Shown: positions 27,263 through 27,865 of the stretch, piece after piece | How positions within the stretch are numbered: the stretch's first letter is position 1 | Layout of the letters: the number at the start of each line of letters is the position of its first letter | NCBI GenBank assembly: GCA_021845645.1 | Contig: JAJZVM010000008.1 | Location: forward strand, 65,467 to 129,466 | Direction: 5' to 3' | Source: Bacillota bacterium | Lineage (GTDB): Bacteria; Bacillota_E; JAJZYS01; JAJYTV01 | Length of the DNA stretch: 64,000 nucleotides | The notes under the pieces: model-generated | Databases searched by the model: none | Seen by the model: only the letters and a program-made list of their open reading frames with translations | What the model was told of the DNA's origin: nothing | Program-made: the position numbers and the translations under genes

Positions 27263-27865
27263 TCAATGCGCGTGGTCTGGCCGCCACACCTTCCACACAT
27301 GGCCGGCGAGGTCCGGCGACGGGTGCAGCGCCGTCTGCCCGGGCCGCCAGCCGGAAGGCGTCACCTCGCCGGTCGCGCGGACATGCTGGAACGCGCGCAC
27401 CTGCCGGATGAGCTCGTCCACGTTGCGGCCCACGGCCGGCGTCAGGACCTCCATGGCCTGGATCACGCCATCGGGGTCGATCAGGAAGCGGCCGCGCAGA
27501 TCGACGCCGGCGACCGGGTCATAGACGCCGTAGACCTCGCCGATGCTGCCGCTCTGGTCGCTCAGCATCGGATAGGGCACGCCTCCAGGGATCATGCGCT
27601 CGAGCTCGTCCGCCTGCCAGATCTTGTGGACGAAGCGGCTGTCGGTGCTGACCGAAAGGACCTCGACGTCGAGCGCCTGAAGTTCCCCGTACCTGGCGGC
27701 AACTGCCGTCAATTCGGTCGGTCAGACGAAGGTGAAGTCGCCGGGATAGAAGCAGAGCACCACCCAGTGGCCGAGATAGTCGGACAGTCGCACGTTCTTG
27801 AAGCCTCCGCCGATCAGGGCGCTCGCCTCGAAGTCCGGGGCCTTGCCGCCCACCCTGGCCGTCAT
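27263..27865 (-). CDS. Peroxiredoxin (AhpC/TSA type), predicted selenoprotein with in-frame UGA
   Basis: The frame runs 201 codons from ATG 27865 (GGAGG eight bases upstream) to 27263 with one internal stop, TGA at 27724-27722. The reading FYPGDFTFV-UGA-PTELTAVAARYG shows that the UGA stands exactly at the peroxidatic cysteine of the universal PxxxT(x)xxC motif, and the spacing T-F-V-U matches known TxxU peroxiredoxins. Everything downstream is intact: VLSVSTDSRFVHKIW, YPMLSDQSGSIGEVYGVYDP, the conserved Arg of LRGRFLIDPDG, and GEVTPSGWRPG. The usual resolving Cys of GEVCP is Thr. The enzyme should reduce hydroperoxides. I interpret UGA as selenocysteine. A nonsense mutation or sequencing error at this one codon is the alternative. 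Confidence 0.8.
27682..27703 (-). promoter_or_regulatory. Candidate bacterial SECIS hairpin
   Basis: In the mRNA, 19-40 nt after the UGA, GUU-(G)-CC-(G)-C pairs with G-GG-(G)-AAC. This leaves the seven-base loop CAGGUAC with GGU at positions 29-31 after UGA. Bacterial SECIS elements recognised by SelB sit just downstream of the UGA and carry a G-rich apical loop, often GGU. The stem here is short with mismatches, so the call is tentative. Confidence 0.45.

Follow-up and report, generated by a model that had tools for sequence, protein, structure and literature searches.

A predicted selenocysteine peroxiredoxin gene, with a likely SECIS hairpin and two putative starts, in a probable Bacillota genome

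Analysis of a stretch of DNA of 64,000 nucleotides (the window) identified a gene on its minus strand, prxU, which by its sequence is a member of the known PrxU family of peroxiredoxins; the sequence itself is new. Our overall reading, to which we assign a probability of roughly 95%, is that the UGA at the catalytic codon of this gene would be read as selenocysteine, that a hairpin downstream of it likely serves as the SECIS element, and that the gene likely has two starts. The preliminary description of this DNA had proposed a selenocysteine peroxiredoxin, and that proposal was supported by TGA occupying this codon in every one of 79 loci (drawn from the best 80 of 400 candidates), by the selenocysteine machinery of related genomes and by covariation in the hairpin.

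The prxU gene, its relatives and its surroundings

27263 to 27967, minus strand: prxU, predicted to encode a selenoprotein peroxiredoxin; the long form would have 234 residues, with selenocysteine predicted at residue 82; stop TGA at 27265-27263
27722 to 27724, minus strand: peroxidatic codon, a UGA predicted to encode selenocysteine (TxxU motif, here TFVU; T79-F-V-U82), from translation and from the relatives
28098 to 28577, minus strand: rlmH, SPOUT methyltransferase (PF02590), upstream neighbour; same order in L001-L005, 78-87% identity
28641 to 29672, minus strand: HtrA-like protease with PDZ domain (PF13365, PF13180), upstream neighbour; same order in L001-L005, 82-89% identity
26341 to 27198, plus strand: phosphotransferase-family protein (PF01636), downstream convergent neighbour; in L001, L002 and L004 at 60-62% identity

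Translation of the minus strand from 27865 to 27263 gave a frame of 201 codons for an AhpC/TSA-type peroxiredoxin, the sole interruption of which was the TGA at 27724-27722, and which terminated at the TGA at 27265-27263. The interrupting codon lay inside FTFV*PTE, at the position of the peroxidatic cysteine. The read-through protein matched the Pfam families PF00578 (AhpC-TSA), PF08534 (Redoxin) and PF10417 (1-Cys Prx C-terminal domain). The 200-residue read-through form scored 355.6 bits against NF040737 (peroxi_PrxU), an equivalog model with a curated cut-off of 270, and the read-through protein scored 188.4 bits against the AhpC equivalog TIGR03137, under the cut-off of 272. These matches and the translation bore out the claim of a complete AhpC/TSA frame broken only by this TGA, and the relatives, with TGA at the same codon, agreed with its placement exactly at the cysteine of FTFVCPTE.

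Third-position GC was high, at 0.89 and 0.86, on the two sides of the UGA, and no further stop was found in the frame of the window gene. When the core was compared with that of the five closest relatives (L001-L005, of which L001 and L003 represent nearly the same gene), dN/dS was about 0.09-0.17 before the UGA and 0.11-0.14 after it. The core was thus strongly conserved and constrained on both sides, as had been claimed, but the description of the flanks as fully conserved was too strong, since the linker of the N-terminal arm was not conserved.

Relatives were obtained by scanning one genome per species with the part of the protein that follows the UGA; of 400 encoding stretches the best 80 were kept, corresponding to 79 distinct loci. 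With an initial motif, TGA was recovered in 77 of these 79 loci and in the window, and a looser motif added TGA in L035 and L049, bringing the count to 79 of 79. The one cysteine codon met among these loci, a TGT, belonged to another peroxiredoxin of L021, of the ordinary kind. Such recurrence is far beyond chance, in agreement with the earlier argument that a random nonsense mutation would rarely fall on the catalytic codon. Two of the loci, L026 and L048, each carried two UGA-bearing prxU copies.

Wider samples gave a similar picture. An in-frame TGA was present in 40 of 40 family matches over the cut-off among 299 genomes from the phylum of the L001 genome, in 10 of 11 among 301 genomes from the phylum of the L008 genome, and in 20 of 20 among 247 genomes from the phylum of the L067 genome. 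The 299-genome sample also held two weaker, sub-cut-off matches, one with the TGA and one without it. A second stop lay in the matched stretch of some genomes (G043, G082, G195, G257 and G097 in the 299-genome sample and G345 in the 247-genome sample).

The closest kin among the best 80 of 400 stretches, L001-L005, were 84-90% identical to the window protein after the UGA and came from metagenome-assembled genomes named Clostridia or Bacillota. A search for other disrupting mutations in close relatives, which had been proposed as a check, found no other break in L001-L005. In the distant L027, prxU (L027:1358-1600) had a stop 20 codons before the UGA, with the arm readable in another frame and the intervening stretch seemingly missing; this break is perhaps an assembly error or a decaying copy. 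The gene order htrA-rlmH-prxU was common to L001-L005, and a gene with an S-layer domain ahead of it was also kept in L001-L004. The phosphotransferase-family neighbour was not found at L003, which lies on a short contig, or at L005.

The database entries closest to the window protein (P0007, P0063, P0069 and P0103) were 149-residue pieces that start right behind the UGA; among the 120 best database homologues, 49 carried tryptophan at the active site. Both kinds of entry look like annotation artefacts of unrecognised selenoprotein genes.

Several other features of the window were recorded. Further in-frame TGA candidates were located at 9952, 18706 and 19513 on the plus strand and at 28643 on the minus strand; those at 18706 and 19513 are overlapped by a transporter gene on the minus strand, and that at 28643 marks where the htrA-like gene ends. 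On the plus strand, a c-di-AMP riboswitch at 59395-59528 (RF00379, 82.1 bits) was directly followed by an ORF (59521-60384) that combines a 3D domain with an N-acetylmuramoyl-L-alanine amidase domain and likely encodes a cell-wall hydrolase under c-di-AMP control. The minus-strand stretch 24033-26500 had a weak coding signal and gene pieces, among them a short-chain dehydrogenase C-terminus at 25470-25766, just under the Pfam cut-off, and, close by, a glyoxalase-family domain within the ORF at 24033-24566; these are perhaps gene remnants.

The predicted SECIS hairpin and the selenocysteine machinery

27692 to 27712, minus strand: predicted bacterial SECIS hairpin; stem 27708-27705 with 27700-27697, apical loop AGUU at 27704-27701, 17 nt after the UGA

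Numbered from the U of the UGA, the stem of this hairpin is formed by positions 17-20 with 25-28 and the loop by 21-24, with outer pairs past a mismatch. The minimum free energy of the stretch 13-33 in the window was -7.5 kcal/mol, and the stem had four continuous base pairs, or seven with the A-C mismatch between them. The passages of PMC13188914 that set out limits for bacterial SECIS elements give a loop of 3-9 nt with G in the first two places, a stem of 4-16 bp, a spacing of 16-37 nt and a minimum free energy of -7.5 or lower; the window hairpin lies within all of these, its energy exactly at the limit (-7.5).

Two pairs, 21/24 and 18/27, both of which connect third codon positions, were followed through 147 UGA-bearing rows of the alignment. 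The first was A-U in 102 rows, G-C in 36, U-A in two and another combination in seven; the second was G-C in 100, A-U in 34, U-A in two, C-G in one, G-U in four and another combination in six. After 12 of the 147 rows had been dropped, the remaining 135, which encode Ala-Val-Ala after Thr, Ser or Ala, formed the covariation set. Pair 21/24 was intact in 135 of 135 rows and pair 18/27 in 132, the other three having G-U. Shuffling (2000 times) gave mean pairing of 61% and 59% and maxima of 73% and 70% for 21/24 and 18/27, respectively, and nine other third-third pairs, not all of them at fourfold sites, were paired in 0 to 66 of the 135 rows.

At least 15 changes at 21/24 and at least 14 at 18/27 were counted on a quick tree, 50 of whose 132 inner branches were weakly supported. 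In six independent comparisons across well-supported branches, the partners shifted together in six of six cases for 21/24 and, for 18/27, in an average of 5.9 of six (median sign-test p = 0.03; up to 0.06 for 18/27). In the genes of the window, GCA made up 9.0% of alanine codons and GTT 3.6% of valine codons, and the loop is nonetheless written GCA-GTT. Cysteine-encoding forms were considered as a control for the hairpin and set aside; only three such rows were available (L021, L140 and L141), and they are no matched control because their peptide differs from Ala-Val-Ala. A bacterial SECIS element after the UGA had been named as something to look for, and the hairpin found there, inside the published limits and covarying at synonymous sites, likely acts as one.

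A search for selA, selB, selD and tRNA-Sec had also been proposed. No sel genes were found in the results examined for the 64-kb window, and the search was carried out in the genomes of the five closest relatives and of L016. SelB and SelD were over their cut-offs in six of six genomes, and tRNA-Sec scored 68.7-69.3 bits with the Rfam model in all six. Since five of 14 control genomes also exceeded the Rfam cut-off, that score alone is not specific, and ARAGORN was therefore run; it reported a tRNA-Sec with the anticodon tca (UCA) in each of the six. SelA was over the cut-off in five of six genomes and in the sixth (L005) ran off the end of its contig after 88 model positions, so that SelB, tRNA-Sec and SelD were present in five of the five closest kin and SelA was complete in four. 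The SelD genes of the six genomes (L102-L108, two of them in G002) had one in-frame TGA each; SelD in those relatives is therefore probably itself a selenoprotein.

Beyond these six, SelB was over the cut-off in 48 of 50 further prxU-bearing genomes, against two of 14 control genomes; the genomes of all but 23 of the 79 loci were thereby covered. The two without a SelB match among the 50 were those of L012 and L033 (G311 and G331), which are perhaps incomplete assemblies. By analogy with L001-L005, it is reasonable to infer that the organism of the window has the same machinery. In that case selenocysteine would be formed on tRNA-Sec by SelA and SelD. SelB, bound to the hairpin 17 nt downstream of the UGA, would bring it to that codon, and translation would run on to the TGA at 27265.

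The N-terminal arm, the two predicted starts and the competing readings

27866 to 27967, minus strand: N-terminal arm, MSGSKDGCVSAARGPI..., outside the frame of the preliminary description; conserved Cys8 at 27946-27944
27975 to 27979, minus strand: GGAGG, which likely serves the long form (ATG 27967) as Shine-Dalgarno, from sequence; GGAGG ahead of the arm start in 79 of 117 genes
27874 to 27881, minus strand: GGAGGAGG, which likely serves the short form (ATG 27865) as internal Shine-Dalgarno, from sequence and relatives
27359 to 27361, minus strand: canonical C-terminal resolving-cysteine position, Thr203 (GEVTP), from alignment; GEVCP in the ordinary peroxiredoxin of L021

The frame was open upstream of 27865 as far as an ATG at 27967, which has GGAGG at a spacing of 7 nt and adds the 34 residues of the arm. 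The start codon at 27865 was ATG in the window and GTG in L001-L005, each with GGAGG about 8 nt ahead. A good ribosome-binding site and start had been claimed at 27865; with GGAGG at 8 nt that start looks real, but it is not the sole one, given the longer start at 27967. Because 27865 too has GGAGG at a spacing of 8 nt, both starts may be used. Ribosomes would initiate at 27967 to give a 234-residue form with the Cys8 arm, and would also initiate at 27865 to give a 200-residue form without it.

The arm motif was common to most relatives, with an arm dN/dS of 0.18-0.61 against L001-L005. Its cysteine was present in 121 of the 139 parseable UGA rows (147 rows in all), and near it in those 121 rows stood proline at +3 in 93, alanine at +4 in 70, glycine at +6 in 83 and proline at +7 in 73, a recurring C-x-x-P-A-x-G-P. 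An AF2 model of the protein had a mean pLDDT of 87.9; it was confident across most of the core, with 175 of 234 residues at 90 or above, and poor in the arm, at about 50. The best PDB match of the model was human peroxiredoxin 2, and its matches were typical 2-Cys peroxiredoxins. The threonine of TxxU was invariant in a 40-row alignment.

Peroxide reduction by the predicted protein would be based on selenocysteine: in its attack on hydrogen peroxide or organic peroxides, the selenolate would be converted to a selenenic acid. Because the canonical C-terminal resolving cysteine is replaced by Thr203, we propose that this intermediate would be resolved by Cys8 in the form that carries the arm, or by an external thiol, for instance that of thioredoxin. 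The arm cysteine may act as the resolver, although the monomer model cannot place the arm (pLDDT about 50). Among the 147 UGA rows, 112 had the arm cysteine without and nine with the canonical resolving cysteine; the remainder comprised five with the canonical cysteine only, ten with neither, three with a short-arm cysteine and eight that were unparsed. The apparent exclusion between the two cysteines (Fisher p = 0.009; 112 and 9 against 10 and 5, the eight unparsed and three short-arm rows excluded) was given no weight, since the rows share ancestry and some arms are doubtful, that of L043 being cut by a contig end and the cysteine of L172 possibly lying ahead of the start.

There is about an even chance that the protein is instead a pure 1-Sec peroxiredoxin, in which the UGA likewise encodes selenocysteine, an external thiol reduces the enzyme directly and the arm cysteine is uninvolved. 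The threonine at the canonical resolving position is consistent with such an enzyme, as are the ten rows with neither cysteine, the predicted flexibility of the arm in the model, and the short form, which would be armless. Against it, the arm cysteine is kept in most parseable rows and inside a recurring motif; it is also present in homologues shown with an active-site cysteine (P0006, P0024 and P0035), some of which may be selenocysteine shown as cysteine.

The case for a second start was strengthened by statistics on the relatives, whose rows share ancestry and are not independent events. In 116 of the 121 arm-bearing UGA rows, a lenient search placed an ATG or GTG no more than seven codons from the core, and expectations were obtained by redrawing the codons synonymously from the same gene in 300 resamplings. 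A loose Shine-Dalgarno set lay ahead of the internal start in 86 of the 116 genes (49.1 expected, maximum 62 in 300), GGAGG in 89 (26.2 expected, maximum 37) and AGGAGG in 78 (22.8 expected, maximum 33). In-frame ATGs inside the core, which served as a second control, had no Shine-Dalgarno excess (30 of 458 against 35.9 expected). GGAGG positions peaked at -13 and -16 from the internal start codon, and Lys-Glu was spelled AAGGAG in 72 of 80 cases at this site compared to nine of 34 in the core. The excess of GGAGG makes two isoforms likely, and prxU likely yields a longer and a shorter form.

A reading in which the long form is the sole product, with the internal GGAGG as a relic of an armless ancestor or a ribosome-pausing site, is possible but the less probable of the two. 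Armless PrxU genes had GGAGG before the same core start in ten of 17 cases, so the site could be inherited, and 27 of the 116 arm genes had no GGAGG at the internal start. However, the internal GGAGG persists against synonymous drift and at start-like spacing, and the codon it precedes varies between ATG and GTG, as a start would allow.

Three further readings, which deny selenocysteine altogether, were disfavoured by the conservation of TGA in 79 of 79 loci (best 80 of 400), by dN/dS and by the use of TGA as a stop. A reassigned code, in which UGA would stand for one of the standard amino acids, is most improbable: the tryptophan entries in the databases appear as if UGA encoded tryptophan, but they look like a translation artefact; SelB and tRNA-Sec were present in relatives; and UGA is normally a stop in the window, because 28 of 44 ORFs (selected from 58) end in TGA, and prxU does so too. 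Tryptophan at the peroxidatic position would moreover be expected to abolish peroxidase chemistry. A nonsense mutation in an ordinary cysteine peroxiredoxin, leaving two drifting remnants, would fit the 149-residue entries and the further break in L027, but is hardly credible given the shared TGA, a core dN/dS of 0.09-0.17 on both sides, the otherwise open frame and the covarying hairpin. An error at a TGC or TGT codon, for which a single base would be enough, is scarcely tenable when separate assemblies carry the same TGA and relatives have the selenocysteine machinery.

Significance and comparison with known systems

PrxU was reportedly first described by Sohling and colleagues in 2001 as a selenocysteine-containing peroxiredoxin of Eubacterium acidaminophilum, and the family is said to have been on record since then. 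Selenocysteine peroxiredoxins are thus already known; the predicted two-start design of the window member is unexpected. With the present analysis an uncultured lineage gains a well-supported selenoprotein gene, the kin of which are carried in databases as a 149-residue piece or with an active-site tryptophan, and the covariation at synonymous sites outlines the SECIS core of a selenoprotein family in terms open to testing by point changes.

Taken together, the lack of a C-terminal resolving cysteine and the conservation of both the arm cysteine and the internal start suggest one gene with two chemically different subunits, which poses a concrete question for the enzymology of selenocysteine peroxiredoxins. 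As a tentative generalisation, which we consider somewhat less probable than its negation, PrxU genes of this type may be two-product genes with two Shine-Dalgarno/start pairs. The long subunit would have a floppy C-x-x-P-A-x-G-P arm that relocates the resolving cysteine to the selenocysteine, the short subunit would be armless, and the two would form mixed rings of 2-Cys-like and 1-Sec subunits, sharing one UGA decoded via a compact SECIS core with an N1-G-U-N2 tip in which N1 and N2 strictly covary. Among literature titles and abstract openings, a scope outside which the 2001 founding paper fell, no mention was found of two start sites in PrxU or of a resolving cysteine at its N-terminus.

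The preliminary description had stated that selenocysteine peroxiredoxins with a TxxU motif are established and that the motif here is TFVU. This was correct: the NF040737 match agrees with it, passages of PMC13188914 and PMC9312934 list peroxiredoxin with TxxU and refer to the 2001 work of Sohling and colleagues, which PMC8533274 has among its references as well, and a passage of PMC1794560 includes peroxiredoxin among the bacterial selenoprotein families with T/SxxU/C sites. The passages of PMC4046663 mention prxU in two sulfate reducers. In those of PMC7409299, a selenocysteine-containing PrxU was raised in ore-grown Sulfobacillus thermotolerans and taken as a sign of oxidative stress; the likeness to the window protein is one of name, and these passages show no test of selenocysteine.

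The window protein resembles E. acidaminophilum PrxU and the NF040737 family in its TxxU at the peroxidatic site, its score over the family cut-off and its AhpC-TSA fold, and differs from them as a new sequence, probably of Bacillota, from an uncultured genome. Its Cys8 arm and second predicted start may also set it apart. With typical 2-Cys peroxiredoxins (AhpC/Prx1, such as human peroxiredoxin 2 and Salmonella AhpC) it shares the fold and the surroundings of the active site. In contrast to these enzymes, it has a predicted selenocysteine codon in place of cysteine, threonine in place of the C-terminal resolving cysteine (VCP) and an N-terminal cysteine arm, and its TIGR03137 score (188.4 against 272) sets it apart from AhpC.
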